DNA of 64,000 bases from Candidatus Aegiribacteria sp. MLS_C (GTDB lineage Bacteria; Fermentibacterota; Fermentibacteria; Fermentibacterales; JCC-6). The notes below the pieces were generated by a model that was not told where the DNA came from, ran no database searches, and saw only the letters and a list, made by a program, of their open reading frames with translations. The DNA is taken from positions 1-64,000 of the forward strand of contig LQBI01000008.1 in assembly GCA_002030045.1 (NCBI GenBank), in the 5' to 3' direction. Positions 28,922-48,443 of the stretch are shown here, one piece after another (positions within the stretch are counted from its first letter, which is position 1; every line of letters starts with the position of its first letter). Made by a program: the position numbers and the translations under genes.

Positions 28922-29455
28922 TTGCGAATAACGCCGCTTGATATAAGAAGACAGAATTTCCGCAAGATAATGCGTGGATACGATGTCGACGAGGTGGAGG
29001 CCTTCCTGGAGATGGTGGCATCCGCCTGGGAGGAGCTGGTGGAGGACCTGGACAAGGCGGAAAAGGAACTCAGCGTCCTCAGGGCCAGGGCCGCCGATTT
29101 CGACCGCATGGAGGGAGCTGTGAGGGACGTCCTGGTCCAGCAGCAGCAGAGCGCCGCCCAGGCCCGCAAGGAGGCTGACCGGGAGGCGGAACTCATCATC
29201 ATGGACGCGGAGGTCAAAGCCTCCAACCTCATCTCCGAGGCCAGGGAGAGGGTCCAGGTCCTGACGGAGACCATTCGGGAGCTTCAGGACAGGAGACTGT
29301 CCGTACTATCGCAGGTAAGGTCCTTCGTCGATTCCCAGAACAGGATGCTGGACATGGAGGAGGAGAGGATAAAATCCGAGATGGTTCCCGAGGAGGAGAA
29401 GCTCCCCGGGGAGGAGGACGGCGATTCACCACTGCTGGAACTCACGGAACTATAA
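28922..29455 (+). CDS. DivIVA-domain coiled-coil protein
   Basis: This 177-residue protein starts at TTG. The N-terminal membrane-curvature domain is clear (RITPLDIRRQNFRKIMRGYD, VDEVEAFLEMV). A long coiled coil runs from about residue 35 to 145, and the tail is acidic. DivIVA-type proteins mark poles or septa. In this lineage the exact role is unknown. It sits just before the porU-like gene. Confidence 0.85.
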   Translation: MRITPLDIRRQNFRKIMRGYDVDEVEAFLEMVASAWEELVEDLDKAEKELSVLRARAADFDRMEGAVRDVLVQQQQSAAQARKEADREAELIIMDAEVKASNLISEARERVQVLTETIRELQDRRLSVLSQVRSFVDSQNRMLDMEEERIKSEMVPEEEKLPGEEDGDSPLLELTEL

Positions 29456-29473
29456 GGACATGAGGGGCGGCCT

Positions 29474-32400
29474 ATGAGTTACCTCCTGCTGATGACGGCG
29501 CTGGTTCTCCAGTACGGCGGGACCGGCAATGCCTGGGATTCCGTGCGTGAGGCTGCAGAGGCGGATGTGCGGGTGGGCGCGTCTGAGACCGTCCTCATCT
29601 GGGAGTGCCCGGAGCTGATACCTCTTGAAGTGCCCCTTGAAGGCGTCGTCGGATACATGGCGGAAGGATGCTCCTTCGCGGGTGACGATGGCGGTATCCT
29701 GCTTCCGGCCGCCTACCTGTTCTTCGCAGTGCCTCCGGATTCGGATTGCGAGCTGGAGGTTTTCCCGGAAGGCGCCCGTAGCCTGGGCCGGCACCAGGTG
29801 GCGAATGTGGAGGTCTCCGAAGAGGGAATGGACGTCTACACCGTCGCGGAACCGGGAAGCCAGCCCTCTGAATGGGGCGGGATCGTCCACCGTGGGACCT
29901 TCAGGAGGGCCGGCTACGCAATGGTGAGGCTCAATCCGGTGATACTCGACGGCGACGGGCTCATGACCGCCCGCAGCCTGACCGTGCGGCTTTCCTACGA
30001 TGGAAGGACTGCGCCATCCCCCGCCGGGGGGACCTCGGGCGCCATCTTCGACCTCCTGTTCGAGGGGGGTGACAGGGTATGGCAGTCCCCTCCCGAGAGA
30101 CAGGGTCCGGGACCCTTCTGGGGTCTTCCCTGGTACCGCATGGAAGTCGATACCGCAGGGATGTACAGTGTCGAATGCTCCGAAGTCCCGCAGGCCGAGG
30201 GAGCCCCTTCCGCCAGCCTTGCCCTCTTCTGCGGCATGGGCAGGGAGATGGGCGATGCCCCCTGGGAGAACGCCTACACCCCCAGGCCAGTGCCGATACT
30301 GATGCTGGACGGAGGGGACGGAACCTTCGACCAGGGGGACAGTTTCATCTTCTTCGGCCGCGGTCTCTCCTGGTGGGAGGCCGATGGCCAGTCCATGCCG
30401 GGCCATTACGGACACCGGTTCGACGACGCCAACGTCTACTGGCTCACCTGGGGCGGCGAGAACGGACAGAGGATGGCCGAGCAGAACGGGGAACTCACCG
30501 GGGCCCCGGCCATGCCCGATACCTTCCTGGGCAGGATCCACCGGGAGCAGAACACCGAGAGGTGCAGGGGGACCGCGGGTTTCGAGGACGACTGGGCCTG
30601 GCTCCGCTCCACCGGAGGTTCCGACAGCTGGCACTACTTCGACTTCGAGGCCCCCGGGGCCACCGGTGACGGCTACCTGAGGATGCGCCTGGCCTCCACC
30701 ACGGGAATACAGCACAGGGTCAGGGTTTACCTGAATTCGGAGTTCATGGCCGATACCAGCTGGTCCGGGACCGGCTTCATGGATGTCTTCTGCGGGCTTG
30801 AGGGGATACAGCCCGGCGGCAACAGCCTGGCCCTGGAGATAGTGCGGGATTACGGCAGCGACGAGCTATTCATGGACTGGTTCCAGGTATTCCCCTGGAC
30901 CGGGTGCACGTCTTCCCCCGTGGTCCAGGTTCCCCTGGAATGGTGGCCCGAGTACGAAAGGCATTCCCTTGACTGGGGTGAGGGCCTGGAGGACGCTCTG
31001 GTGTTCCTGGTGAGCGGCGATACGCTGGCCCGGAGGGTACTTCCGGACGATCCCCGGGTCTTCGAGTTCCAGGTCCCGGCCGACTGGGAGGCAAGGGAGC
31101 TCTGGATAGTGGGCGAAAACGGGCTTCTGACACCCCAGGCCATCACCTACAGGACCCCGGGACGCATAGCGGGGACCGTGACAGGGGCCGGTTGCGTCTA
31201 CATCGCCGCAGACCAGTTCCTGGACGATATCGAGCCTCTCTCCGACAGGTACGGGACCCTTTCCTTCTCCGCGTCGGAGGTGTACGAGGAGTTCAACGGC
31301 GGCGTGCGTGACCCGGGAGCCATAAGGGCCCTGGTCTCACGCATGATGGCCTCCTGGGACCCGATCCCCGCCGATCTGGTCCTGGTGGGGGGTGGCACAT
31401 GGGATCCCAGGAATTTCGTTTTCTCCAAACCGTCCCTTATAGACGTCCTCTACCTGGGCACCACCACCATCGTCAGCGACGACGAGTTCGCCGTCGTGGA
31501 CGGGATGACCGCCCCACAGACGGCGGTATCCAGGATAGGGGTCTGCAACGCCACCGATCTCCAGAGGGTGGTGCAGAGATCCGTCGAATACAGGTCAGGC
31601 ATGAACCGCGGGAGCTGGCAGACGGCGGTGATCGGAGCCGCCGACGACGAGAGGTCGCCTCTCCACGGGAGCGACGAACGCTACCACACCCAGAGCGTTG
31701 AAAGGCTCCTTACCTCCTGGCTTCCAGAAATCCTCAGGCCCGAGAAGCTCTACATGATCTTCTACGACTGGAACAGCATCTGGAGCAAGCCCGAGGCCAG
31801 GGAGGACTACATAGACCTCTGGAGCGAGGGAGCCCTCGTCTCGTTCTACCTCGGTCACGGGTCCTTCGATCAGCTGGCCGACGAGGGGCTTCTCTACCTC
31901 GAGGACACGGATGTGCTGGAATGCGGTCCCCGCCTTCCGGTAGCCTTCTTCGGCTCCTGCGACGTGGGTCGTTTTCAGGACCCTTCGTCCGAGTGCATAG
32001 GCCAGCAGGTAACCGTCTCGCAATCGGGAGGGGCGATCATAGGCGTCGCCGCCTCGGACAAGACCTCCGGCCCGATGAACGAGACCCTGATAGCAAGCAT
32101 TTTCGACCATCTCCTGGTCGAACCGGGAGTATCCGTGGGCACGGCCATACTGCTGGGAAAGCTCGACGCCGGTTATTCGACCAACAACGCCCAGTACGTT
32201 GTATTCGGCGACGGAAGCCTGCCACTGGCCTTTCCATGGGACAGCTTCGGCATGGCTGCGGACACAATGCTGGCGGGAGAGATGAACTCGCTCTCAGGGA
32301 CCGGCCCGGAACCGGGCCTCCTGATCGTGGAGGCCTGGGAGTCCTGCATTCCCGATACCTATTACACCTTCAGGCAGTCGCTGCCCATCGGCTACCTGTC

Positions 32401-33235
32401 CATACCGGGGAGGTACTACTACGGCACAGCCGCCGCCCAGCCGGATTATTCCCTCGAGATGTTCGTCCCCATCGATGCTGACACCGGCAGGTCGGCCAGG
32501 ACGCAGATGGTTCTCCTGAGTGACGGGGGCCTCTCGACGGCCTCCTCGTATCCGGGGTGGCTGCTTCGGGGCGATCCGGGACAGGATGCGCAGGGGCCGG
32601 ATATCGAACTCTGGATCGAGGGGTACAGGTACGCCACCCGGCCTGAGGTTTCGGGTGAGATCGTCGCCAGTGCGATACTGTCTGACAGCTCGGGCATCAA
32701 CCTCCTCGGAGGGGTTGGACGGCAGCTGGTCCTCTACGTGGACGGCGCGCCGCAGGACGTCTCGTCACTTTTTCAGTACGACAGGGGATCCAGCACCACA
32801 GGCAGCCTGAGCTGCAACATAGGCGAACTTGAGCCGGGTCCCCATACCCTCGGGCTTCGAGCGGCGGACGGTCTCCTCAACATTTCCGAGGAGGAGATCG
32901 ACATCACGGTTACCGAGGACAACAGCTTCATGATACTCGAGGTATTTCCCTATCCGAATCCCTGCTCCGACGGCACTTCGATAAACTGGACCCAGACCGC
33001 TCCGGGGACCGTGGGCATATCCGTCTTCACCGTCGCGGGCAGAAGGGTGGCCGCCTTCGGGAACATCGAGGGGAGCGCAGGATATAACCAGTGCTGGTGG
33101 GACTGCCGGGACGCTGACGGCGATGAGGTGGCCAGCGGATCGTATATTTTCGTGGTTGCCCCTGACATGCCCGGCGGCGATGCCGGATCATCTTCGGTTA
33201 CCGGGATCATCGCGGTGGTCAGAGGGCAGGACTGA
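29474..33235 (+). CDS. porU: PorU-like C25 peptidase (T9SS sortase candidate)
   Basis: This 1253-residue secreted protein has a C25 catalytic domain with His795 (YLGHGSFDQLADE) and Cys829 (AFFGSCDVG). The long N-terminal beta-rich half, the size near that of PorU, and the PorV-like gene directly downstream all match the porU-porV pair of Bacteroidota. PorU cleaves sorting domains from cargo and attaches it to the surface. The C-terminus (YPNPCSDGT, VFTVAGRRVA, ASGSYIFVV) is itself a sorting domain, as in PorU. A plain gingipain-type protease is the alternative. Confidence 0.78.
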   Translation: MSYLLLMTALVLQYGGTGNAWDSVREAAEADVRVGASETVLIWECPELIPLEVPLEGVVGYMAEGCSFAGDDGGILLPAAYLFFAVPPDSDCELEVFPEGARSLGRHQVANVEVSEEGMDVYTVAEPGSQPSEWGGIVHRGTFRRAGYAMVRLNPVILDGDGLMTARSLTVRLSYDGRTAPSPAGGTSGAIFDLLFEGGDRVWQSPPERQGPGPFWGLPWYRMEVDTAGMYSVECSEVPQAEGAPSASLALFCGMGREMGDAPWENAYTPRPVPILMLDGGDGTFDQGDSFIFFGRGLSWWEADGQSMPGHYGHRFDDANVYWLTWGGENGQRMAEQNGELTGAPAMPDTFLGRIHREQNTERCRGTAGFEDDWAWLRSTGGSDSWHYFDFEAPGATGDGYLRMRLASTTGIQHRVRVYLNSEFMADTSWSGTGFMDVFCGLEGIQPGGNSLALEIVRDYGSDELFMDWFQVFPWTGCTSSPVVQVPLEWWPEYERHSLDWGEGLEDALVFLVSGDTLARRVLPDDPRVFEFQVPADWEARELWIVGENGLLTPQAITYRTPGRIAGTVTGAGCVYIAADQFLDDIEPLSDRYGTLSFSASEVYEEFNGGVRDPGAIRALVSRMMASWDPIPADLVLVGGGTWDPRNFVFSKPSLIDVLYLGTTTIVSDDEFAVVDGMTAPQTAVSRIGVCNATDLQRVVQRSVEYRSGMNRGSWQTAVIGAADDERSPLHGSDERYHTQSVERLLTSWLPEILRPEKLYMIFYDWNSIWSKPEAREDYIDLWSEGALVSFYLGHGSFDQLADEGLLYLEDTDVLECGPRLPVAFFGSCDVGRFQDPSSECIGQQVTVSQSGGAIIGVAASDKTSGPMNETLIASIFDHLLVEPGVSVGTAILLGKLDAGYSTNNAQYVVFGDGSLPLAFPWDSFGMAADTMLAGEMNSLSGTGPEPGLLIVEAWESCIPDTYYTFRQSLPIGYLSIPGRYYYGTAAAQPDYSLEMFVPIDADTGRSARTQMVLLSDGGLSTASSYPGWLLRGDPGQDAQGPDIELWIEGYRYATRPEVSGEIVASAILSDSSGINLLGGVGRQLVLYVDGAPQDVSSLFQYDRGSSTTGSLSCNIGELEPGPHTLGLRAADGLLNISEEEIDITVTEDNSFMILEVFPYPNPCSDGTSINWTQTAPGTVGISVFTVAGRRVAAFGNIEGSAGYNQCWWDCRDADGDEVASGSYIFVVAPDMPGGDAGSSSVTGIIAVVRGQD

Positions 33236-33375
33236 ACCGGTCGATGAATGGGCCGGTCTGTCCGGTGAAGAGGACCGGGTGAAGGAACCCGCACCTGTCC
33301 TGGCGTGTTACGCTCCTTGACTGGTATGGATAACTCAGGCCGAAGCAGGACTTCGGTGTATCTCAGGAGGAACCG

Positions 33376-34380
33376 ATGATCAAAGGACTAGTTCTCTTTC
33401 TCGCAGTTCTTGCTTTGGCCGGCGTTTCCGGCGGATCCACCGCCAGCGTCATCTGGATGACCATAACCCCCGGTGCCAGGCCCAACGGAATGGGCGAGGC
33501 CTTCACCGCCATGGCCGACGACGCCACCGCCTCGTACTGGAACCCGGCGGGGCTGGCCTTCGCGGACACCACGGGGCAGGAGATAACCCTGCAGCACAGC
33601 AACTGGCTGCCGCAGCTGGCGGACGATCTCTACTACGAGTTCCTCGGATACTCGAACTACATCGACGGCTGGGGCGGAGTGGGCGGCAACATAACCTTCA
33701 TGTCCATGGGAGAGCAGCTGGAGACCACCGAATCAGGCCAGGAACTCGGCGAGTTCTACTCATACGGCATTGCCCTGACCGGCTCCTTCGGTACCGAAGT
33801 GGCACCCGGAGTCTCCGTCGGACTGGGCCTCAAGTTCATATACGATCATCTCTACTACGAGGATTCCGGCAAGGGGACCTCCTTCGGCGCAGACCTGGGC
33901 GTCCTGTACCAGCTTCCGATGGAGCAGCTGGGCATAGGGAACATAGGCCGGATCAACCTTGGAGCCAGCCTGGCGAACCTCGGTCCCAACATGAGCTACG
34001 GTGGAAGCACCGAGAACAACCCGCTGCCCAGGACTCTCCGCGTTGGAATGGCCTACGTCCCGTTCGACAGTCACCTCACGAGGCTCAGCTGTACGGCGGA
34101 CTACAGCAAGATACTGGTGAACGTCGACGACGGCATCGGTGAGGAGTTCAACGAGAACAAGTGGGGTGCCGGCGCCGAATTCTGGTACTACGACCTGCTG
34201 GCCCTGAGGGCCGGTTACATACACGATACCGAGGGCATCTCCACCATACAGGGTCCCACCTTCGGCGCCGGTCTTCAGTACTCGGGCTTCCAGCTGGACA
34301 TGGCCTTCATACCTGTAGAGGAGAACCTCCAGGGTTCAGGCAAGTACAATTCCAAGTACTCGCTGTCCGTAAGGTTCTAG
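33376..34380 (+). CDS. porV: PorV-like outer-membrane beta-barrel (T9SS)
   Basis: This 334-residue protein has a signal peptide and is then rich in alternating aromatic strands, ending in Phe (YSLSVRF) as outer-membrane barrels do. The N-terminal segment GARPNGMGEAFTAMADDATA, then SYWNPAGLAF, is the FadL/PorV-type plug motif. PorV carries cargo from the T9SS translocon to the PorU sortase. Neighbourhood with the C25 protein supports that role over a general FadL-like transporter. AGGAGGA precedes the ATG. Confidence 0.8.
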   Translation: MIKGLVLFLAVLALAGVSGGSTASVIWMTITPGARPNGMGEAFTAMADDATASYWNPAGLAFADTTGQEITLQHSNWLPQLADDLYYEFLGYSNYIDGWGGVGGNITFMSMGEQLETTESGQELGEFYSYGIALTGSFGTEVAPGVSVGLGLKFIYDHLYYEDSGKGTSFGADLGVLYQLPMEQLGIGNIGRINLGASLANLGPNMSYGGSTENNPLPRTLRVGMAYVPFDSHLTRLSCTADYSKILVNVDDGIGEEFNENKWGAGAEFWYYDLLALRAGYIHDTEGISTIQGPTFGAGLQYSGFQLDMAFIPVEENLQGSGKYNSKYSLSVRF

Positions 34381-34386
34381 GGTTCG

Positions 34387-37218
34387 ATGTCCAGTCCCTT
34401 CCGGGTACTCCTGCCCCTCCTGCTGGCGCTTCCCGCCGCGGCTGCCCCCCCGCTGGTTCACGGTGCGGTGCCTCCGCTTCATGAGAGACCCTCTGAGGGA
34501 AGGGCGATAACCGGGCCCGGCTCGAGGGACGGCACCGACGAGACCATGCGCGTATGCATGCTGAGGGTGCAGTTCCTGGAGGACTTCACGGACCTTACCA
34601 CAGGCAGCGGCCTGATCGACCTGGATGCCGACCCGCCCCACGACAGGGACTATTTCCGTGGTCTGGCCGACGACCTTTCCGCTTACTACGACGACGTAAG
34701 CGGCGGGGAGGTAGTGCTGGACATCGACATATACCCGTCGGGATTCAATGACAGCTACACCATGGACCACCAGATGCTCCACTACGGCGACGACGGCGCC
34801 TACATGGAAGGCGCCTGCCTCCTGCTCCGGGATGCCGTCCTGGCGGCCGACCAGGACCTGGACTTCAGCCAGTACGACGCGGTGATCGTGATACATGCCG
34901 GCTCCGGCCAGGAGGCCGACATATACGGGGACAGCCCCGGCGACATAGGTTCCGTCTTCCTCACACTGACGGATCTCATCTATTACCTCCCCGGCGCGGG
35001 GACCGGATACCAGGGCATACCCACCGGGGACGGCGTCTACGTAGCGGAAGGGATGATAGTGCCCGAACAGGAATCACAGGACGGCTTCGGCCTGGGAGTG
35101 CTGGGCACGATAGTCCACGAGTTCGGCCACCAGCTTGGTCTTCCGGACCTCTACGACACGTACACGGGCAGGGTGGGAGTTGGCGGATGGTGCCTGATGG
35201 GCTACGGCCAGTGGATGATGAGCGGTTACTGGCCCTCGGCGCCGAGCGCCTGGTGCAGGGTATACCTGGGATGGGAGGTACCCCGGGAGGTGGAGGAGGG
35301 CACCTACACCCTGGCCGCTGACGATTCCATACTGATGGTTCCGCTGAACGGCACCGAGTACCTGCTGATCGAGAACAGGCAGGAGGATCCCGACGGCGAC
35401 GGGATGTGCGGTACGGACGAGCACGATTTCGGTCTTGCAGGCTCCGGAGTGCTGATCTGGCACATAGACAGGACCCGACTGGGGGAATACGTGGGGGCCA
35501 ACATCGTGAACGTGGATCCCGAACACAAGGGGGTGGACCTGGAGGAGGCCGACGGCATACAGGATTTCGACTACTCCCTGCCTGACATATACGGCTACGA
35601 GGGCAGCAGCTACGATCCATGGTTCCCGTCGGGGTACGCATGGGAATTCTCTCCCTGGTCGGAGCCCTCCAGCGACGCAAGCTGGGGAGGCAGGACCTTC
35701 GTTACGGTGGAGGTGCTGGACGATCCGGCCGATGAGATGCAGGTCAGGATATCAAGGTCCACCGTCTGCGACGGATGGCCCCTGAGTACTGCTCCCCTTG
35801 CCTTCGGTCCGGTGATCTGGCCGGAAGCCGACGAAGAGGGGGACAGAATGGTTGTCACCACCAGCACCGGAATGGCGCTGGCCTACACCGCCGACGGTGA
35901 GGGTCCTCTCTCCATGGGGCTTGGCGTGACCGCCCCCCCGGTGTCCGCCTGGACCGGAAGCTCCAGCAGGCTCCTGGTCTGCGAGGACGACGGAGAGGTT
36001 CACCTTCGGGACACCCGGTGGAACGAACCGGCGGGATGGCCGGTGACGCTGCAGGGCGGGGGTTCCGGAGCGAGTGCGATGTACATCGAGGAGGAAGGCG
36101 TCGTCGCGGTGGCATGTGACAACGACAGGCTCCATCTGTACCATGGTAACGGGGAACCGGTTGACGGATTCCCGGTCCCCCTCACGGCTCCCGTCTCCGG
36201 ACTGGCTCTCTATCCCGGCCCCGATGAGCACCGGCTGCTGGCCGCCACGTTAGACGGCAGGGTCCACATGTGGGACATGACCGGAAGGGTCGTTTCCGGA
36301 TGGCCCGCGACTCCGGGGGACGAGACCATAGGAGTGCCCCTTGCGGCGGACATCGACCGCGACGGAAGCACCGACGTGGTGGCCGTCAGCGGCGATTGTG
36401 TCTACGCCTGGGACGGCGGGGGAGGCCTTCTTCCGGGATTCCCGTCCACGCTTCCCGCTGAACCTCTCTCCTCGCCCTGTCTGGCCGATCCCGACGGTGA
36501 CGGCAGACTGGAGACGGTGGTCCTGACATGGGAGGGGATATCCGCGGTGGGTCCCTCGGGGGCCACCGTGGAGGACTGGCCCGCAGTAATTCTTCAGGAC
36601 AGCCTGACTGCTGGTTTCAGCAGCGGAAGGGCCGGGGTGGGAGGCTCAGGTTTCGTCATGGTCACCATGGACGACGGCAGGGTATGCCTCCTTGAAGGCG
36701 ACGGCTCCCAGAGCGGCATCTTCCCGGTATCCGTGGGAGACAGGCCGACGGGAAGACCCCTGCTGTGGGACCCTGACGGTTCAGGGCAGTACAGGGTCGC
36801 GGCAGCGGCCGCTGACGGGACCATCTACTGCTGGAACACCGATTTCGAGCCCCGGGGATGGCACACGGGAATGGACCATTCCGGTTGCAACTGCTGGCGG
36901 ACCGGCGACCTGCCGGCTCTCGAGGACACGGACCGGGTACTGGAAGACGGTTCCTTCTACGTTTATCCCAATCCCGTGACCGGAGGGTCGGGGATCGTGA
37001 GGTTCAGGCCCGGGGAAGACTGCGCCTGGGAGATACGCGTTTTCAACATGGGAGGTGACCTCGTGGCCCACATGACCGGAAGCGCCCCCGGGGGGGCGGC
37101 CTGGGAGGAGACCTGGGACACGCGGGACCTGGCGCCGGGCGTCTATTTCGTGAGCCTGAGCCTGAGGACCGGCGGAAGCTCCACAGAAGCCCTCTTCCAT
37201 GCGGCGGTGATCAACTGA
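34387..37218 (+). CDS. Secreted M6-family metallopeptidase with T9SS sorting domain
   Basis: This 943-residue protein has a signal peptide. The zinc site is H244-E-F-G-H248, followed by G251 and D254 (HEFGHQLGLPD), the immune-inhibitor-A/M6 extended motif. A long propeller-like region follows from about residue 460, with repeated strands (VVVTTSTGMALAYTADG, MWDMTGRVVSGWP). The sorting domain (FYVYPNPVTG to GVYFVSLSLR) ends it. It begins 6 bases after the porV-like gene and ends TGATG into the next, so it is probably co-expressed with the exporter. Confidence 0.83.
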   Translation: MSSPFRVLLPLLLALPAAAAPPLVHGAVPPLHERPSEGRAITGPGSRDGTDETMRVCMLRVQFLEDFTDLTTGSGLIDLDADPPHDRDYFRGLADDLSAYYDDVSGGEVVLDIDIYPSGFNDSYTMDHQMLHYGDDGAYMEGACLLLRDAVLAADQDLDFSQYDAVIVIHAGSGQEADIYGDSPGDIGSVFLTLTDLIYYLPGAGTGYQGIPTGDGVYVAEGMIVPEQESQDGFGLGVLGTIVHEFGHQLGLPDLYDTYTGRVGVGGWCLMGYGQWMMSGYWPSAPSAWCRVYLGWEVPREVEEGTYTLAADDSILMVPLNGTEYLLIENRQEDPDGDGMCGTDEHDFGLAGSGVLIWHIDRTRLGEYVGANIVNVDPEHKGVDLEEADGIQDFDYSLPDIYGYEGSSYDPWFPSGYAWEFSPWSEPSSDASWGGRTFVTVEVLDDPADEMQVRISRSTVCDGWPLSTAPLAFGPVIWPEADEEGDRMVVTTSTGMALAYTADGEGPLSMGLGVTAPPVSAWTGSSSRLLVCEDDGEVHLRDTRWNEPAGWPVTLQGGGSGASAMYIEEEGVVAVACDNDRLHLYHGNGEPVDGFPVPLTAPVSGLALYPGPDEHRLLAATLDGRVHMWDMTGRVVSGWPATPGDETIGVPLAADIDRDGSTDVVAVSGDCVYAWDGGGGLLPGFPSTLPAEPLSSPCLADPDGDGRLETVVLTWEGISAVGPSGATVEDWPAVILQDSLTAGFSSGRAGVGGSGFVMVTMDDGRVCLLEGDGSQSGIFPVSVGDRPTGRPLLWDPDGSGQYRVAAAAADGTIYCWNTDFEPRGWHTGMDHSGCNCWRTGDLPALEDTDRVLEDGSFYVYPNPVTGGSGIVRFRPGEDCAWEIRVFNMGGDLVAHMTGSAPGGAAWEETWDTRDLAPGVYFVSLSLRTGGSSTEALFHAAVIN

Positions 37219-37880
37219 TGAGAAAAACCACCCTGCTGACAGTCTTTGCGGTGCTGCTGGCGGCTGCGGGACCATCGGGAGCGGTCAACCCCAGGGCCGG
37301 GGCCATGCTCCGTTCCGCCGTCCTGCCCGGATGGGGCCAGATGCACCTGGGCCACGGGACCAGGGGAATAGTGTTCATGAGCCTGGACCTTGTCACCTGG
37401 GCCGGCGTGGGCCTCTCCTACCTCGAGGGAACGTTCAGGCGTGACGACTACACGTGGCTTGCTGTGTCCGAGGCTGGTATATCGGTGGACGGAAGGCCCG
37501 GGGATTTCCTGGACGACATATCCGACTTCGACTCCAGCATGGAGTACAACGACTACATCCACAGGCTGGCCCGGTACTACTACCCCGACGATCCCGACGC
37601 CCAGCGCCAGTACTACGAGTCCCACGCAAGGTACGGCGACGATTCCTGGGACTGGTCCTCCGAGGAGGCGAGGGCGATGTTCGGAAGCCGACTCCGGGAC
37701 AGCAGGGAGTGGTTCAGGCGGAGCCTCTACATAGCCGCCTTCGCCCTGGTCAACAGGGCCGTGAGCGTCATCGACGCATCACTGCTGGACGAGAACCGAC
37801 CGGGGATGTACACTTCGCTCTCGTTCCCCGAGAAGCGTGATTTCTCCTCCTTCAGGTTCTCCGTGGGGGCACGGTTCTGA
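37218..37880 (+). CDS. DUF5683-like membrane-associated protein
   Basis: This 220-residue protein has a signal peptide or anchor. The motif MLRSAVLPGWGQMHLGHG, with a hydrophobic turn after it, resembles DUF5683 proteins common in FCB bacteria. Those have no known function. Later parts are rich in Tyr, Asp and Arg, and a second hydrophobic stretch lies near residue 175. ATG overlaps the preceding TGA, and its own stop overlaps the next ATG. Confidence 0.65.
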   Translation: MRKTTLLTVFAVLLAAAGPSGAVNPRAGAMLRSAVLPGWGQMHLGHGTRGIVFMSLDLVTWAGVGLSYLEGTFRRDDYTWLAVSEAGISVDGRPGDFLDDISDFDSSMEYNDYIHRLARYYYPDDPDAQRQYYESHARYGDDSWDWSSEEARAMFGSRLRDSREWFRRSLYIAAFALVNRAVSVIDASLLDENRPGMYTSLSFPEKRDFSSFRFSVGARF

Positions 37881-39541
37881 TGGCGCCGCTACTGCTCGCC
37901 CTGTTGCTGGGCACGGCTCCCCGGGCGTACTGGACCGACGGCACGCTCCAGGTGCCGGGGCTGATGGAGATCGACAGGCGCCACGACCCGGCATTCGAGC
38001 CCACCGGACCGCTGGCAGGCGCAAAGGGCCACGAGATAGGCGATACGATCAATTTCTGGTCCATCGACTACAGCGAGGACATTCCGAGGTTCTACCTGAC
38101 GCCGGCGACCTGCAGGTACGTGGGCAACCACACCTACATCTTCGTGGAGGATTCCCAGTGGGGTGTCCACTACGACCAGGATGCGGTCAGCGCACTGGCG
38201 ACGGCGCTGGAGACCGAGACCCCCTCGGGTCCGGGAGGGATCATGGACAAGGACATAGAAGTCTTCGGGCAGCCTCCCGACGCCATAGACGGTGACCCCA
38301 GGGTCTATTTCCTGGTACTGAACATAAGGGACGGCTTCGATCCCCAGCAGGGCGGAGTCTACATCGCCGGCTTCTTCAGTCCCTACAACCAGTTCACCGA
38401 GACCGAGGCCTACCTCTACTACGGGGGGCATTCCAACGAGGTGGAGATGCTCTACATAGACTGTTTCCCCTCGGACCAGTACGATGCGGCCTACACCGCC
38501 TCCCACGAGCTGGTCCACCTGATACAGTGGGGCATCGAGCCCTTCAGCTCCGAGGAGCTGTGGGTCATAGAGAACCAGGCCCAGTCGGGAACCTTCGTGT
38601 GCGGATACCCGGCCTTCCAGGTGGAGACATTCCTTGAGGTGGGCGGCATCACCCCCATCAAGTGGACCAGCCTCACCGACGACATAGAGTACGTGGCAGG
38701 CTACGGAGCCGGGTTCCTGTTCTTCTCCTACCTCTACGAGAACTACGGCGGCGACGATTTCCTGCACAGCTCGCTCAGGGTATCCGACAGGGGAGTGTCA
38801 GGAGTGAGCGAGGCCATAAGGAACGCCACCGGTGAGACGCCCGACATGGACCAGGTGCTGGCCGATTGGATGCTGGCATGCTGGATCGACGATCCCGGTT
38901 TCGGCGACGGAAGGTACGGCTGGGACGCTTTCCGCATCGCAGACTACGACACAGTGTCACCGGGGAACCGCGCCGGTCTCGACTACTCCCGCATCATCGA
39001 ATCGGACCCCTTCATCGATACCGGCCGACGCATGTCCTCCTACCAGGGAAGCTACTACCGGGTCGACCAGGGCGTCGGCGGCAGTTTCAGGGCCGACGGG
39101 TCGGGCCTGGGCGACATGAGGGCGTACCTCTTCGACGGCTCCGCGGGTATTCTGGAAGTACTGGACACGGGATCCTCCAACGACGTGGCCCTTTCACTTC
39201 CCCAGACCGGCGACGTTCTTCTCATGTGCAGCTCCTTCAGCGGCCTCGACCTGGATGTGGCGGCAGGTTCCGTCGCGTCCGCCTCCGATGATTTCGCCGT
39301 CTACCCGCAGCCCTGCCAGGGCACCCTCTACATGCAGTTCCTCTCGGACGGCGGGAGCGCCGAACTCTCGGTCTTCTCCGTCACCGGAGGGCTGGTGGGG
39401 ACGGTGGAGTTCCCCTCAGTTGCAGGCGGTGAAGCCACTCTCGCCTACCCGGGAGCCTCAGAGCTCGCCTCGGGCACCTACTTCTACAGGTTCACCCAGG
39501 GAGGAAGAGTGGAGACCGGTTCGTTCGCAGTTGTGCGCTAG
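37880..39541 (+). CDS. Secreted HExxH protein with T9SS sorting domain
   Basis: This 553-residue protein has a signal-like N-terminus (APLLLALLLGTAPRAYW). HELVH at 209-213 in TASHELVHLIQWG is a zinc-binding motif of the M30 or peptidase MA kind. ELWVIEN about 18 residues later could give the third ligand. The C-terminal 80 residues (FAVYPQPCQG, VFSVTGGLVG, ASGTYFYRF) form a sorting domain. It is probably a surface or released peptidase. The HExxH is clear; the family is not. Confidence 0.75.
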   Translation: MAPLLLALLLGTAPRAYWTDGTLQVPGLMEIDRRHDPAFEPTGPLAGAKGHEIGDTINFWSIDYSEDIPRFYLTPATCRYVGNHTYIFVEDSQWGVHYDQDAVSALATALETETPSGPGGIMDKDIEVFGQPPDAIDGDPRVYFLVLNIRDGFDPQQGGVYIAGFFSPYNQFTETEAYLYYGGHSNEVEMLYIDCFPSDQYDAAYTASHELVHLIQWGIEPFSSEELWVIENQAQSGTFVCGYPAFQVETFLEVGGITPIKWTSLTDDIEYVAGYGAGFLFFSYLYENYGGDDFLHSSLRVSDRGVSGVSEAIRNATGETPDMDQVLADWMLACWIDDPGFGDGRYGWDAFRIADYDTVSPGNRAGLDYSRIIESDPFIDTGRRMSSYQGSYYRVDQGVGGSFRADGSGLGDMRAYLFDGSAGILEVLDTGSSNDVALSLPQTGDVLLMCSSFSGLDLDVAAGSVASASDDFAVYPQPCQGTLYMQFLSDGGSAELSVFSVTGGLVGTVEFPSVAGGEATLAYPGASELASGTYFYRFTQGGRVETGSFAVVR

Positions 39542-40289
39542 GAGGATCCTCTCCGCGCTGTCACTGCTGGTCGCCCTGCAGCCGCTCCATTCAGCACCTG
39601 TATCCGCCTTTGCCGAATCCCGCCGGGTGACCTTCCCTCCGGACCTTGTGGACGCCTCCATCGATGGAAGCGGAGACATCTACCTCCTCCTGAGGGGGAT
39701 GCCCCACCTGGTGGTCCTCAGAGCCGACGGCTCGAGCGAGGAGTACGATCTCCGGGAGATAACCGTTCCGGGAGGTCTGCACCTGGACCAGGGCTGGGGA
39801 TGGTACGCCACCGGGGAACTGTCGGGAACCCTGTACCGCTACGACAGGAACGGAGTGATGACGGGATCCTGGGATGCCCCCGGTCTTCCCGGGGATGTCT
39901 GCGTGGCAGGGCTGTCCGTACTGTACGTTTCCCGTACCGACGGGACCGTGAGGTCCGTCAGGGACCCGGAGGAGGAACTTCTCGGTCTGGAGGGGTCGGG
40001 GGACGGCCAGCTGACTCCGATGGGGAGAAGGTTCGTCTACTCCTCCCCGGACGAGTCCATGGTGCTCGACGAGTACAACTCCCCCCTGCCCCTGCCCGCC
40101 TCGGGAATATGGACTGCCGCCGGAGAGGAACTGGTGCTGCTGACCGATTCGTGCGTATGCACCCGGGAGGGCCTGGAACTCTTCAGGCTGCCTCCCGGGG
40201 AGACCTTCGGAAGGATCTCCCTCGCGGGAGGAGGGGCCTTCTGCCTCCTCTGGTCGCCGGGAGAGGAGAAGGCTCTGGTACTGAGGTGA
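39531..40289 (+). CDS. Exported protein of unknown function in the T9SS locus
   Basis: This 252-residue protein begins at TTG 39531, inside the end of the previous gene. That start gives a good signal peptide (ARRILSALSLLVALQPLHSA). AGGAGG at 39541-39546 could instead serve a CTG start at 39558. The body holds short repeated strands (ISL-, YRYDRNGV, VYSSPDE) like a beta-propeller of 4-5 blades. The stop overlaps the next gene as GTGA. It is small and acidic, with no known domain recognised. Confidence 0.6.
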   Translation: MCARRILSALSLLVALQPLHSAPVSAFAESRRVTFPPDLVDASIDGSGDIYLLLRGMPHLVVLRADGSSEEYDLREITVPGGLHLDQGWGWYATGELSGTLYRYDRNGVMTGSWDAPGLPGDVCVAGLSVLYVSRTDGTVRSVRDPEEELLGLEGSGDGQLTPMGRRFVYSSPDESMVLDEYNSPLPLPASGIWTAAGEELVLLTDSCVCTREGLELFRLPPGETFGRISLAGGGAFCLLWSPGEEKALVLR

Positions 40290-43200
40290 TCCAGGGAGCC
40301 GTCCTCATGATGGCCATTTCCGCGATGACCCTGGAGTTCAGGGGCGACGGAGGGGAGTTCTTTCAGGTCCCCGACTCGTTGTGGATCGAACCGGGCACCC
40401 TCACGGCAACGGTAGACGGCGATACCGTAGAGGTCACGGCTGGAGCCTCCGGTTCCAGGACCGGTGTATTCCTCTCTCCGGCTCCTCCCACCGACAGCAG
40501 GGTGATCGTCTCCTTCGACACGCTCCCTCTGGGTGTGCCCTCCACCGTTGTTCTGGACGTTGGTTTCGCCGGCGGAAGGACTATCGAGCAGCTTCCCGTC
40601 CATTCCTCCGACCCGTTCATGGAGAGAGGCCTGTACATCTCGGGTTCGAAGAGGATAGGCTTCTCCGTGGGCGACGGAGGCGGACTGGACCAGGGGACGA
40701 GGATATCGGTGGAGGGTACGGCGGCTCCGGGAATAACCGTCTCCGGAAGCGTCACCGACCAGAACCTGGCATCGGGGCAGTACTCGTCGGAACTGGTATC
40801 CCAGCTGGACAGGGTGTTCTTCCTCGTTGACGGCGGAAAGTGGCGGGCCAGGCTGGGCGACATGGAATGGACCAGCGGCGGGGGGGAGACCGGTCCGCTC
40901 TCCTGGAGACGCGAGGTGAGCGGCATCGACGGGTTCGGTCAGCTCTCGGACCGGTATTCGGCGTCGGCCGGGTACGGCACTTCCGGCGATTCACGGCAGA
41001 GGACCGTTTTCTACACGCAGGAAGGCGTCCAGGGACCCTATCAGGTTACTTCCGGATGGGAGGTGGTCCCCGGGAGCGAGAGGGTCTGGCTGGACGGGGA
41101 ACTCATGACCAGGGGCGCCACCGGGGATTACGTCATGGAATACTCGGCCGGCCTGGTCACCTTCACCTCCTCGAGGCTCATCAGGAACGACCAGAGGGTG
41201 GAGATAACCTTCTTCCAGAGGGGGGACGGGTTCAGGAAGGACCTGGTGACTGCGGCCGGTTCCTACGGCAGCGGTCCCCTCACCATAGAGGTGAAAGGTC
41301 TCCTCGCCGAGGACGACAGGGGTTCTCCCCTTGGCTTCGTGCTGACCGAGGAGGCCGTGGAGGTGCTTTCCCGGGCCGGAGAGGACCCTTCGGAAGCCTG
41401 GGTGGACGGGGCCGAGTACGTCGGGGAGGGCCAGGGCAACTACACGCTCGATTCCCTGGGACATTTCGTCTACATGGGACCCGACCAGGGGGACTGGACG
41501 GTGGTCTTCGGCCGTCCGCCGGAGGACCCGGGCGACTACATATACGACAGTTCCCTGGGAGGCTACCTCTGGGTGGGAGAGGGTATGGGGACCCATCTTC
41601 CCAGGCAGTACGTGCAGATACCATCGGGTTACAGGACCGGCGGGGCGGTCATGGCCCTGGACGGGGACCTGCTTCACCTCGGAATGGAACTGGCCGTCTC
41701 CCGGAGGACCGGGAACATGTTCAATCCCGGCGCAACCACCAGGGAGGGGGTATTCCTGAAAGCCTCCGGGCTCATGGACTTCTGGGAGGACGGTCCCGGA
41801 CTGGGGCTGGGAGGCAGGCTGGTATCCGAGGGCTACAGGCCTCCGGGGGAGCTGGAGTCCGACAGCTCCCTTGCGGCATGGTCACTGCCCCCCGGGCATT
41901 CGGGCAACGACCAGCTGGTGGAGATGAGCATCGGCGGTGAGGCGCTCCTTCTCTCCAGCGGCGGCAGGTTCCTGGAGACCGGGGGCATCATCGAGAGCTA
42001 CAGGGTGGTCTCGAGACCCGTACTGGCAGGCGTCGGGCTCACCGCCACCTGCGGCTGGCTTGGCAGAACGGGCACCGACAGCCTGTCCGAGGGGAAAAAC
42101 TCCCGGTACGGGGTCTCGGGAATGCCGGTCCATGGAACGCTCAGGCCCTTCGCGGGCCTCGATCTCTACAGCGAGGCCTGGACGGACAGCCTCTCGGGAA
42201 GGGTGGGGACCGGCCACGCCGGTATGCTCCTGGATGCCGGGAGCACAACGGGTCTACTCCGCATGGAGGTCCAGAGGGACGACCGGACCGGCGGGACCTC
42301 CGAAGGCCCGTTCACAGTATGGAGAGGCAGGATAGAGGGTTCCGGTCCCGCGGGAAGCCTCAGGCTGAAGGGAAGCGCGGAACACTCCTCCACCTACTAC
42401 GACACGGGAGGAAATCTGCAGGCCGACGCGGTGAGGGTGACCCTCTCCGGCACCGCGGGGGGCGTATGGTCCGAGACCGTGTACAGCGGCTCCGGAACCG
42501 TCAGCAGTTCACTGGACGTAGTGTACGTGTACGCAGGAGAGGGTGAGGGGGACTACAGCTACGACCCGGAGAGCGGGGAGTACTACCCTGATCCCGACGG
42601 GGACTATCTGATAAGCTACCAGCCGGGAACACAGGGAGGCAAGGTGACGTCCGCCTCCATCGAGAACACCGTCACCTGGGCCGAGGCGTCGCACGGCTTC
42701 AGTTCCAGGGCCACCGTCTCCTCCACAAGCGCGGAGGACCGGTCCAGCGCCCTGCTTCTCTACGGAGCCTTCGACAGCGGACAGGAAGGGGGCTACAGCC
42801 TGGAGTCATCCCCATGGCTCCGCTGGGAGGATGAATTCCTGGCCAGGCTCGGCTTCACCGGGGCGCTCAGCGACCAGAGGGTGGCCTACAGCGGCGCCGG
42901 ATTGCGGCGGAAGAGGGCATGGTCACTTCGGGCGGCCCCTCAGCTCATCCCCTTCGAGGAACTGGTGGTGGACCTGTCCGCCAGGATCTGGAGGGAGGAG
43001 GACGAACTCTACAGCCCAAGGGACGTCAGAGGGACGAGGCTGGAGGTTGACCCTGCCCTGGAGGTGCTTGCCGGGCTCAGACCCGGTTTGCTGGGGGCCT
43101 GGGAGACCCGCAGGGAGGTCGTATCGGGGCTTTCCGAATACATGCTGGAGGCGGGGCCTCACGTATCCTGGACCGGAGGAGGATGGACCGCCACCGCCAG

Positions 43201-43408
43201 GTTGACCGCAGGATACATACCCGGCGAAGGGGACCTTCCCGCATGGTTCTTCGACGGAAACGACTTCGGGGTTTCCTGGAGGGCGTCTGCAAGAGTGGGC
43301 AGGAGCCTCGCGTCCGGTCTGGACATGAGCGTCTTCTACTGGGGGAGGAGACCGGCAGGGGGCGAGCTGAGCCAGAGGGCCGGCCTGGAGGGGACGGTGA
43401 ACTTCTGA
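40286..43408 (+). CDS. Large beta-rich outer-membrane-type protein, possible divergent translocon part
   Basis: This 1040-residue protein has a GTG start overlapping the previous stop. The N-terminus is weakly hydrophobic (AVLMMAISAM). Repeated motifs such as RVWLDGELMTRGATGDYVME, AWVDGAEYVGEGQGNY and YVYAGEGEGDYSYD recur. The second half alternates in barrel fashion (GLRRKRAWSLRAAP, FYWGRRPAGGEL) and ends VNF. The motif style is like that seen in SprA/Sov-type proteins, which form the T9SS pore, but this one is less than half their usual size. The function is open. Confidence 0.55.
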   Translation: MIQGAVLMMAISAMTLEFRGDGGEFFQVPDSLWIEPGTLTATVDGDTVEVTAGASGSRTGVFLSPAPPTDSRVIVSFDTLPLGVPSTVVLDVGFAGGRTIEQLPVHSSDPFMERGLYISGSKRIGFSVGDGGGLDQGTRISVEGTAAPGITVSGSVTDQNLASGQYSSELVSQLDRVFFLVDGGKWRARLGDMEWTSGGGETGPLSWRREVSGIDGFGQLSDRYSASAGYGTSGDSRQRTVFYTQEGVQGPYQVTSGWEVVPGSERVWLDGELMTRGATGDYVMEYSAGLVTFTSSRLIRNDQRVEITFFQRGDGFRKDLVTAAGSYGSGPLTIEVKGLLAEDDRGSPLGFVLTEEAVEVLSRAGEDPSEAWVDGAEYVGEGQGNYTLDSLGHFVYMGPDQGDWTVVFGRPPEDPGDYIYDSSLGGYLWVGEGMGTHLPRQYVQIPSGYRTGGAVMALDGDLLHLGMELAVSRRTGNMFNPGATTREGVFLKASGLMDFWEDGPGLGLGGRLVSEGYRPPGELESDSSLAAWSLPPGHSGNDQLVEMSIGGEALLLSSGGRFLETGGIIESYRVVSRPVLAGVGLTATCGWLGRTGTDSLSEGKNSRYGVSGMPVHGTLRPFAGLDLYSEAWTDSLSGRVGTGHAGMLLDAGSTTGLLRMEVQRDDRTGGTSEGPFTVWRGRIEGSGPAGSLRLKGSAEHSSTYYDTGGNLQADAVRVTLSGTAGGVWSETVYSGSGTVSSSLDVVYVYAGEGEGDYSYDPESGEYYPDPDGDYLISYQPGTQGGKVTSASIENTVTWAEASHGFSSRATVSSTSAEDRSSALLLYGAFDSGQEGGYSLESSPWLRWEDEFLARLGFTGALSDQRVAYSGAGLRRKRAWSLRAAPQLIPFEELVVDLSARIWREEDELYSPRDVRGTRLEVDPALEVLAGLRPGLLGAWETRREVVSGLSEYMLEAGPHVSWTGGGWTATARLTAGYIPGEGDLPAWFFDGNDFGVSWRASARVGRSLASGLDMSVFYWGRRPAGGELSQRAGLEGTVNF

Positions 43409-44766
43409 TGCCGCACCTGGTCTGGCTGCTCCTCGTGATGACCCCCTCCGCCGGGGATATGCTGTCGGTGGAGATGGGGGGCAGTCCGCCGGTCCCGGAA
43501 CTCTACCAGCTGGACCTGGATTCTGTGGTCCTCTCAGACTCCTCAATAGCACTTCTTCAGGAAAGGCTGCTGCAGTGGTACCTGGAGGAGGGCTATCCCT
43601 TCGCCTCGGCGGGTCTCTACCTGTCCTCGCCGGGGACCCTGGCGGTGAACGCCGTGCCGGGAAGGAGGGCCCTCCTTGAAGAGGTGCGGATATCGGGAAT
43701 GCCCGGCACCAGGCCCGAGGTGTTCGTCAGGCTCCTTCCCATGAAGCCCGGCGACCCCTACAGCAGGGAGGCGGTGGAGGAGTGGGTATCCAGGCTGGAG
43801 AACCTGAGTTTCGTCGGATCGGTGGGACAGACCCGGCTCCTTCTGGGCAGACTGGGTAACCTGGTCCTGGAGCAGGACCTGGAGAAGGGCAGCTCGGGTT
43901 ATTTCTCGGCCTCCATGGACTGGCAGGGCGATTACCTTGAAGGCATGGGAGAGGTCCTCTTCCTCAACCTGGCTGGTACCGCCAGGGAACTTGAGATAAC
44001 CGGACGGACCACCGAATGGGGAGGGTTCAACGCTTACCTGAGGTACCGCGAGCCGTGGATATTCGGAATTCCCCTCTCTCTCCAGCTTGAGCTGTCCCAG
44101 GACACTCCGGAGAGCGCCTGGGTCAACAGGGAGGGGAGCCTCACAGGCATATGGAGCTTCGGCGGTATCGAACTCATGGGCGGCGCCGGACTGTGGAGGG
44201 GCTATCCACCGGACGGGGACGAGGAGCGGTACGACTTCGGGCTTGCCGGCATCTCCTACTCAACCAGGCGGCGGGTTTCCCAGGGATTCCGGGGCCTGGT
44301 CCTGGAAATGGAGGGCAGGACCGGCAACAGGACCGGAGGGGATTCCACCGGCATCCTCACCATGGCCGAAATGACGGTTCGGTACGACCGTTACAGTGGA
44401 CCCCTCGGTTACGGCGGAAGCCTCCTGGCAGGCGGAGTGATGCAGGGGGACTGGTTCACCGGTCTTCTTCAGCGGCTTGGAGGACAGTCCACCCTGAGGG
44501 GATATCCCGAGGATGCCTTCAGGGGCGTCAGGTATGCCGTAGCAAGGCCGGAGGTCTCGCTGGGAGAGACTGAGACCAGGGTCTACGTGTTCACCGACCT
44601 GGCCGCAGTGCTGACCGACGGGGACGAGACCCGGTATCCTGCGGGTGCCGGAGCGGGGATAAGGGGCAGGAGCGGCGCCTTCAAGGCCGACGCCGCAGTG
44701 GGTTTCCCCCTGGGGGAAGGCGTGGGGAGCGCAAGGGTATACCTGCGTCTCACGGCTTCGATGTGA
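43408..44766 (+). CDS. Omp85/BamA-type outer-membrane assembly protein
   Basis: This 452-residue protein has at most one POTRA-like domain near residues 60-130 (LEEVRISGMPGTRPEVFVR, AVEEWVSRLENLSFVG). A 16-strand-type barrel follows, with the Omp85 motif LRGYPEDAFRG and a C-terminal strand ending LRLTASM. It is far smaller than BamA (five POTRA domains), so it is a specialised paralogue. ATG overlaps the previous stop as TGATG. It may insert the preceding barrel protein. Confidence 0.75.
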   Translation: MPHLVWLLLVMTPSAGDMLSVEMGGSPPVPELYQLDLDSVVLSDSSIALLQERLLQWYLEEGYPFASAGLYLSSPGTLAVNAVPGRRALLEEVRISGMPGTRPEVFVRLLPMKPGDPYSREAVEEWVSRLENLSFVGSVGQTRLLLGRLGNLVLEQDLEKGSSGYFSASMDWQGDYLEGMGEVLFLNLAGTARELEITGRTTEWGGFNAYLRYREPWIFGIPLSLQLELSQDTPESAWVNREGSLTGIWSFGGIELMGGAGLWRGYPPDGDEERYDFGLAGISYSTRRRVSQGFRGLVLEMEGRTGNRTGGDSTGILTMAEMTVRYDRYSGPLGYGGSLLAGGVMQGDWFTGLLQRLGGQSTLRGYPEDAFRGVRYAVARPEVSLGETETRVYVFTDLAAVLTDGDETRYPAGAGAGIRGRSGAFKADAAVGFPLGEGVGSARVYLRLTASM

Positions 44767-46589: not shown

Positions 46590-48443
46590 TCACCGTTCGG
46601 ATATGACCACCACCCTGAGGGTGCCGTCCTCCGGCAGGGGTTCATGGCGGGAGGGATTGAGGGTCGCCCTGGCATCGGTGCCGGTGCCGGTCAGCCATCC
46701 CAGCACCACTTCCCTTCTGGAGATACCCTTGAGGACCAGGTCGTCGAAGGTGGCGCAGCCGTAGAGTTCCGGGCACCTGAGCTGTATCTCGCAGCCGGTG
46801 GGATCGAATATCTCCTCGTAGAGCGGGCTGAGGTCCGGCTGTATGACCAGCTGTGCCATTATCATGCTGCACACCTCGTTGGAGATCACGAAATCATCTA
46901 TTCCCGCCGCCGAGGCCAACCGCCTGTTCCTGGGATTCCTGATCTCGGACACGACCGTCGACTTCCAGGCGTCTCCCAGCCTGTCCGCCATGTCCCTCAG
47001 TATCAGAAGCGATACTATGCACTCGGAGTCAGCCTCCTCGTCGGTCATGTGCCTGTTCCTGCCCGATACCACCATGATGCTGTCGAATTCCTCGGGATGG
47101 AGAGCTTCCATGCATTCCGGGTCTGTCCTGTCGACCTTCCTGTAGGACACGGTGCTGGTTGTGATCTCCACGCCGGCCAGCAGTTCCTCGCCTTCCTCCG
47201 CAGGCAGGGACCCCGCCACAACTATCTCCGCTCCTTCCATGGAGTACCGGTCCAGCAGCCTCATCATCAGTCTGAACTTCCGGCTCTGGCCCGACAGGAC
47301 CAGCATCCTGAGGGGCTGCCTGCAGGTCTCGCCGGGGGATGCCGTCAGCAGCTCAGGATAGGTTTCCTCGTCGGACAGTCCCGGAAGCCTGGAGTTCTCC
47401 GACAGGAACACCAGTCTGTCCCCGTCCGCGATCGGGCTCTCCGGCGGCGGATTGAGTTCCATGCCCGCATCGGACATCACGCCCACCGCAACCGCGCCGC
47501 GGATCCTGCACGCCGCCTCTCCGAAGGTGAGCCCGCGGGTACCCGGCACACGCTCTATGTAGAACTCGTTCCCGGCGAAGCTGAGAAGTTCGCTGTAGAC
47601 AGCGCTCAGTCCCGGCTGTCTGCAGACCTGTACTATGAGGCGCATCACCATCTCCCTGACGGGGACGGAGTGAATGCCATGGAATGCCATTCCGGCTATC
47701 CTGTCCCTGGAAGGGTCCCTCAGCTCGCAGACCCCGACAGGGCGGTTGCCTTCCAGCAGTGCCCGTATGCCGACCAGTGTCTTTATTATCCTGTCGTCGT
47801 CGTCCCCCACTATCACGAATCCCCTGCAGCGATGGAAGCAGGGCAGCTGAAGGGCGTCCACGTCGGAGGTGTCGCCGGACCTGCAGATGATCTTCCTGAC
47901 GCTCTTCCTGCCGAGTCTCTGGATCAGTATTGACTCGACGGTCTCCCTCGAACTACCTGAGAAGATCACTATCCCGCCCTTCAGGCTGTGATCCCTTCGG
48001 GCCCGCAGCAGTTCCCTGGCAACCTCGAAAAGCCTGTCACCCTCGCCGCAGACTATGTAGTGTCCCTTTTCAAGTACAGGTGACCTCCCCTTCTTGAGCG
48101 CATCCAGCTGGGAGATGATCTTGGAGGAGAAGATACCTATCAGGAGCGAGAGGACAATAATTCCGCCAAGTGTGATCATCACACCCACGGCGGTCATTCC
48201 CGGCTGGTACTGGTTGTCCCTTATGAAGGTTCCCTGGTCCAGGAGCCTGGTGAAGGTCCACCAGAACCCCCCCTCTTCCGGACTTCCCACAAGCAGCATG
48301 CCGACAGCGATTATCACCGCGGAGATGACAACCAGGACAAGCATCTGCCAGGCGGGGTTCCTTATGAGGAGGTTGTTGAAGAAGTACCTTATCCTGCTGC
48401 CGGGGCCTGTCCTTTTTCGGTCGTCACCCCCGCCGAAGCTCAT
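46590..48443 (-). CDS. CASTOR/POLLUX-like ion channel with RCK domains
   Basis: This 617-residue protein has two N-terminal membrane helices (MLVLVVISAVIIAVGMLLV and MITLGGIIVLSLLIGIFSS). Rossmann-like RCK domains follow at about 125-350 (GHYIVCGEGDRLFEVARELL) and 370-600 (LRMLVLSGQSRKFRLMM). This domain order is that of the CASTOR/POLLUX/DMI1 family, cation channels of plants with bacterial relatives. Ion selectivity cannot be read. It overlaps the small LapA-like gene by four bases. Confidence 0.82.
   Translation of the reverse strand: MSFGGGDDRKRTGPGSRIRYFFNNLLIRNPAWQMLVLVVISAVIIAVGMLLVGSPEEGGFWWTFTRLLDQGTFIRDNQYQPGMTAVGVMITLGGIIVLSLLIGIFSSKIISQLDALKKGRSPVLEKGHYIVCGEGDRLFEVARELLRARRDHSLKGGIVIFSGSSRETVESILIQRLGRKSVRKIICRSGDTSDVDALQLPCFHRCRGFVIVGDDDDRIIKTLVGIRALLEGNRPVGVCELRDPSRDRIAGMAFHGIHSVPVREMVMRLIVQVCRQPGLSAVYSELLSFAGNEFYIERVPGTRGLTFGEAACRIRGAVAVGVMSDAGMELNPPPESPIADGDRLVFLSENSRLPGLSDEETYPELLTASPGETCRQPLRMLVLSGQSRKFRLMMRLLDRYSMEGAEIVVAGSLPAEEGEELLAGVEITTSTVSYRKVDRTDPECMEALHPEEFDSIMVVSGRNRHMTDEEADSECIVSLLILRDMADRLGDAWKSTVVSEIRNPRNRRLASAAGIDDFVISNEVCSMIMAQLVIQPDLSPLYEEIFDPTGCEIQLRCPELYGCATFDDLVLKGISRREVVLGWLTGTGTDARATLNPSRHEPLPEDGTLRVVVISER

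Follow-up and report, generated by a model that had tools for sequence, protein, structure and literature searches.

A conserved gene row in a Fermentibacteria genome as the probable outer-membrane module of a general T9SS

We analyzed a window of 64,000 nucleotides, belonging to contig C8 of a 2.98-Mb genome (97.65% complete) whose closest named relatives belong to Candidatus Aegiribacteria and other Fermentibacteria. The window contains a row of nine genes that is probably the outer-membrane or cell-surface module of a general T9SS, one that would serve cargo encoded throughout the genome. The row spans positions 28922-44766 on the + strand and encodes, in this order, DivIVA, PorU, PorV, an M6 protease, a DUF5683-like protein, an HExxH protein, a beta-propeller, a giant barrel and an Omp85 protein. 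An earlier note on this DNA had described T9SS genes, including cargo-type proteins, in one tightly coupled row; the open reading frames that it had placed were confirmed, coordinates included, and its description is borne out by profile and structure matches for PorU and PorV, by the overlaps and by the conserved gene order. The genes were thus correctly assigned to one row, although the row begins one gene earlier than proposed, with a DivIVA-family protein at 28922-29455 (+; Pfam DivIVA, 8.3e-30).

The sole loose junction of the row is the gap of +140 nt between PorU and PorV. DivIVA and PorU are separated by +18 nt and PorV and the M6 gene by +6 nt, and from the M6 gene to the Omp85 gene all junctions are overlaps of 1-11 nt, which agrees with the TGATG- and GTGA-type overlaps noticed earlier. 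These are -1 (TGATG) for both M6/DUF5683-like and DUF5683-like/HExxH, -11 for HExxH/propeller (with an uncertain propeller start codon), -4 (GTGA) for propeller/barrel and -1 (TGATG) for barrel/Omp85. Judging from the sequence, the row is likely a single transcript. An amidohydrolase gene follows +40 nt after Omp85 and, further downstream of the cluster and on the opposite strand, a Castor/Pollux-type ion-channel protein is encoded (window positions 46590-48443).

The order DivIVA-PorU-PorV-M6-DUF5683-peptidase-propeller-barrel-Omp85 is kept throughout the host order (Aegiribacteria/Fermentibacteria) where the contig is long enough, with identities from about 40% to >90%, and of 22-30% for the propeller in the most distant members. 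DivIVA holds the same position in those fetched relatives of the order whose loci reach that far. Candidatus Sabulitectum silens JCC-6 (L105) presents the same cluster order, with most genes matching in fragments and many stops in one frame of the barrel match region, meaning either broken genes or assembly errors. Outside the host order, 29 barrel-carrying loci were scanned with profiles built from Fermentibacteria alone; profiles rebuilt with members from outside the order inflate the E-values of those members, and our counts use the Fermentibacteria-only profiles. PorV-M6-DUF5683-barrel occurs in eight of these genomes (G110, G143, G170, G140, G050, G107, G066 and G175), which are classed with the host only as belonging to the same domain, each in a different family. 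PorU is seen in six of the eight; in the remaining two, the fetched stretch is too short to reach it. Of the 29 loci, 16 have Omp85 next to the barrel. The synteny comparison thus gave the same order across the host order and, without the second peptidase, in eight genomes outside it, and this conservation is, at the level of sequence, beyond chance. Promoter- and terminator-like sites across the row are at background level, as one might expect if unrelated outer-membrane genes were merely neighbors in a compact genome. Such a chance neighborhood is, however, contradicted by an order that is kept at widely varying identity within the host order, and kept outside it as well, and we consider it extremely improbable.

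The identification of the row with T9SS is supported by PorU and PorV. The PorU-like C25 cysteine peptidase (sortase; 29474-33235, +), which has a weak C-terminal sorting-tail signal, is over the cut-off for Pfam C25 (E 2.9e-49) and matches NF033707, the NCBIfam PorU model, with 7e-87 and 292 bits, below the equivalog cut-off of 420. Its closest solved relative is PorU 6za2 (1.5e-18), and the catalytic His and Cys motifs are present (GHG at 794 and SCDVG, of the form SCxxG, at 828). The PorV-family outer-membrane shuttle (33376-34380, +) passes NF033709 (3.2e-69, 234 bits against a cut-off of 90), misses the stricter PorV equivalog (169.7 against 250) and has PorV 6h3i_F as a solved relative (8e-26). 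The C25 and PorV-like calls of the earlier note thus held against solved structures.

Two metal-dependent peptidase-like cargo proteins with sorting domains had also been proposed, and the evidence is fuller for the first than for the second. The M6-family metalloprotease (34387-37218, +), with FG-GAP repeats, is over the cut-off both for TIGR03296 (117.5 bits) and, in its T9SS sorting tail, for the NCBIfam model TIGR04183 (Por_Secre_tail, 24.6 bits), and its active-site motif HEFGH is intact at 244. Although its best NCBIfam match is NF052323, the T9SS-dependent M6-like inactivated metalloproteases (E 2.5e-85), 287 bits lie under the cut-off of 600, and we rejected this 'inactivated' family because the protein has kept the catalytic HExxHxxGxxD, as have its eight counterparts in the clusters outside the order. 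The HExxH protein (37880-39541, +), a putative metalloprotease, presents HELVH at 209, NF045524 at E 0.0026 and a sorting tail (TIGR04183) of 20.1 bits, just below the cut-off of 23. In the cluster it is found only within the order; next to the cluster in the 29 barrel loci outside, the Fermentibacteria profiles did not clearly identify an orthologue. Between the two, the gene at 37218-37880 (+) encodes a small exported or membrane protein that had been called DUF5683-like. PF18935 matches it weakly (E 0.006), and a profile of its orthologues finds the same-position proteins in genomes outside the order, one paired copy of which reaches the Pfam cut-off.

Further T9SS parts are encoded elsewhere in the genome. 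SprA is a 1870-aa protein on contig C13 (TIGR04189, 422.9 bits against a cut-off of 200), matches to the sorting-tail model TIGR04183 number 93 across many contigs, most of them over the cut-off, and four more PorV-family genes lie outside the row. Two additional T9SS-tail proteins are found in the window outside the cluster, at 16541-19030 (which also weakly resembles C25 peptidases) and at 20701-22506. PorU and PorV therefore most likely serve unlinked, genome-wide cargo, which matches the T9SS logic in Bacteroidota. The suggestion of a dedicated, compact secretion system, by contrast, is not supported by these findings. In such a self-contained system, the two linked cargo proteins would pass through the giant barrel rather than SprA, and PorU and PorV would process them. 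The translational coupling and the presence of cargo genes within the row speak for it, as do the conserved synteny, the distant relation of the barrel to SprA and its own Omp85 and propeller. However, the same genome also encodes SprA and some 90 sorting tails that are not linked to the row, which argues against it, as does the distribution of the barrel, which in many genomes lacks linked cargo or PorU and is almost exclusive to genomes with SprA; we thus regard a dedicated system as quite unlikely.

The last three genes form a triad of propeller, barrel and Omp85, which is new. What had been noted as a small exported protein (39531-40289, +; start codon uncertain, TTG 39531) is indeed exported, and is corrected to a protein of up to 252 aa that is predicted to fold as a six-bladed propeller. 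Its AlphaFold model (pLDDT 86.8, pTM 0.82, 24 strands) leads Foldseek to NHL/Pizza6/Vgb propellers. Pfam detected no NHL repeats in the copy of the window, although same-position orthologues elsewhere have such repeats over the cut-off, and neither a sorting tail nor a further domain was detected. The short protein at 43408-44766 (+), noted as Omp85-like, has a POTRA over the cut-off (27.2 against 21.3; 6.6e-6) and a weak Omp85 domain (E 0.029), while its positional orthologues outside the order present three POTRAs and the Omp85 domain over the cut-off. BamA was rejected as its identity, as it fails TIGR03303 (OM_YaeT, the BamA equivalog; 39 bits against 297), while the true BamA (463 bits) lies on contig C13 with skp beside it.

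The large barrel-type protein (40286-43408, +; GTG start, or ATG 40307) is predicted to be a giant outer-membrane barrel of ~1040 aa by an AlphaFold model of moderate confidence (~36-38 strands, pLDDT 64, pTM 0.46). No Pfam family covers it. It fails TIGR04189, the SprA model, which it matches over a single 57-residue stretch (E 2.5e-4, 18.3 bits against a cut-off of 200). When alignments of 58 and 26 sequences were compared by hhalign, barrel and SprA shared blocks of 97%, 93%, 84% and 40% probability, all four collinear along both proteins and including the C-terminal end; a shallower comparison of the barrel profile with two SprA sequences gave one 54-column domain only. The domain in common has ~55 residues and reads GSE.V...G...RG..DY...Y..G..TF. 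Given the collinear segments on the one hand and 18 bits against 200 on the other, the barrel is, by profile comparison, a distant, shorter relative of SprA and not itself SprA. Searching PDB sequences with the profile of the barrel gave chance matches only (E > 0.5), and Foldseek and VIA-align on the model gave generic outer-membrane barrels, with SprA (8gl8_A) at rank 44, and therefore the fold alone does not prove the kinship. FimD, LptD, TonB receptors and AlgE appear in the structure-match lists, and were rejected as identities since nothing else backs them.

The distribution of the barrel follows that of SprA closely. Of 148 Bacteroidota genomes, 117 have SprA and 93 have the barrel, so that its absence from this phylum could be rejected, and all 93 have SprA. 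The barrel is thus present in 93/117 SprA-bearing and 0/31 SprA-lacking Bacteroidota (Fisher p about 3e-17). In a general sample of 150 genomes outside the host order, 32 of the 33 genomes with the barrel have SprA (Fisher p 3e-18), the exception being G160, where the SprA match is weak; both tests ignore shared ancestry, and most SprA-lacking Bacteroidota belong to one family. As the two profiles share the ~55-residue domain, weak matches can cross-ring, and two genomes (G252 and G272) in which the match lies in SprA itself were left out of the Bacteroidota barrel count. The restriction of the barrel almost entirely to SprA genomes speaks for an accessory channel and against an alternative one. 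T9SS does not depend on the barrel, as 24 of the 117 T9SS-bearing Bacteroidota lack it. In G026, outside the order (L070 884-5036), propeller and barrel lie beside an ABC transporter and genes called from sequence as ftsZ, ftsA, murB and murC, with porU and porV absent nearby.

The triad need not act in T9SS directly: it could be a unit for envelope biogenesis or transport, sharing an outer-membrane program with porU and porV. Indeed, the triad stands away from porU and porV in many genomes outside the host order, and in the sampled Bacteroidota loci the barrel mostly stands alone, with neither Omp85 nor propeller as a neighbor. The generic barrels returned by Foldseek fit such a unit too. Set against it are the near-exclusive co-occurrence of the barrel with SprA, the homology blocks common to both and its adjacency to PorV, M6 and PorU in eight genomes outside the order and in the whole of it, which leave it a possibility that we hold to be less than even. 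It is compatible with a general T9SS for PorU and PorV.

In the barrel tree, which has a midpoint root only and several unsupported deep nodes, barrels with propeller or Omp85 neighbors occur in each of the two halves that the root separates. The 18 Bacteroidota sequences all belong to a single supported half (0.934-0.977). The tree thus points to an old origin of the compact arrangement, with the dispersal in Bacteroidota probably derived.

A complete standard T9SS elsewhere in the genome, together with a locus lacking synteny, would have spoken against the earlier note; the synteny is strong, and GldL/GldM (PorL/PorM) gave no profile match in the genome of the window or its order, though SprA is present there. 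These profiles, whose reach outside Bacteroidota is unproven so that divergent motors may escape, were over the cut-off in 1 of 192 genomes. This genome, G103, is Bacteroidota-like and in one contig, with adjacent gldL-gldM (G103:C1:3472730-3475060), and no SprA match was found in it by profile search. The T9SS of the order thus either works without a GldLM motor or has a motor that lies beyond these profiles. On C13, sprA is followed on the same strand, after about 130-250 nt, by pilB, a second pilB, pilT and pilC (L072 4178-15919). The order sprA-pil recurs in each of the four relatives from the host order that were checked (L243-L246) and in none of five other genomes. On its other side, sprA is adjoined divergently by lptF-lptG in Fermentibacteria and, outside the order, in G140 and G024 (L072 16004-18507; L249 4363-6761; L071 4756-7337). 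It is conceivable, if rather unlikely, that the barrel acts as another, small translocon of the SprA type, with an Omp85 insertase of its own and a propeller plug, in a T9SS without GldLM that is otherwise energized; since sprA heads the pil row in this order, the pilus ATPases would then be the first candidate power source.

For these protein families, it is established that SprA passes cargo, that PorV carries it and that PorU cleaves the tail (PMC10994853, PMC8564354). In the general T9SS that we favor, cargo with sorting tails would accordingly cross the outer membrane via the SprA encoded elsewhere, PorV would carry it to PorU, and PorU would remove the sorting tail and then attach or release the cargo, with the M6 protease as a resident cargo of the module. 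Less certain are the roles of the last genes: the short Omp85 might insert the giant barrel and, with the propeller, the barrel might form an accessory conduit or a platform on which cargo docks. For the barrel itself, we infer a role resembling that of SprA, as a conduit in the outer membrane or a platform that handles cargo, with the Omp85 partner as its insertase.

T9SS is described as specific to Bacteroidota and motor-driven. The occurrence of SprA throughout the FCB superphylum has been described before (PMC12611786), and our results add to this a linked outer-membrane module that recurs outside the host order, with motor genes undetectable by profile where SprA is present. A large outer-membrane family without a Pfam model tracks SprA closely, also in many Bacteroidota; should the barrel be a T9SS part, it would be an overlooked component in well-studied bacteria, where deletion could test it. 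The common gene order would also aid in finding missing T9SS parts by neighborhood. Our literature search on T9SS in Fermentibacteria/Hyd24-12, on a SprA-paralogous barrel and on the gene cluster found nothing relevant in the sources covered, which exclude most subscription journals and preprints.

When compared with known systems, the row resembles the Bacteroidota machinery in having porU directly followed by porV, cargo with sorting tails and SprA elsewhere. The earlier statement that T9SS genes are scattered in Bacteroidota is only partly true, as porU-porV adjacency is known there from P. gingivalis and C. hutchinsonii (CHU_3237/3238; PMC8564354). In contrast to that pair, the row here starts with DivIVA and runs on into M6, DUF5683, propeller, barrel and Omp85, and the GldL/GldM motor of Bacteroidota is not detected by profile. 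Other T9SS propeller proteins, PorZ and PorE/PG1058 (PMC5053529), are likewise beta-propellers encoded with T9SS parts, whereas the protein here is a single six-bladed propeller of the NHL/Vgb type without a detected tail or other domain. As with BamA and TamA, the short Omp85 carries POTRA, yet it is the third Omp85 of the genome, with BamA and the second encoded elsewhere. Finally, the SprA/Sov translocon is a 36-strand barrel (PMC10994853, PMC8754138), and the protein described here, likewise predicted to be a giant outer-membrane barrel, has the ~55-residue domain and further collinear segments in common with it; compared with SprA/Sov (1870-2400 aa), however, it is about half the length and has a gene of its own in genomes that carry SprA as well.
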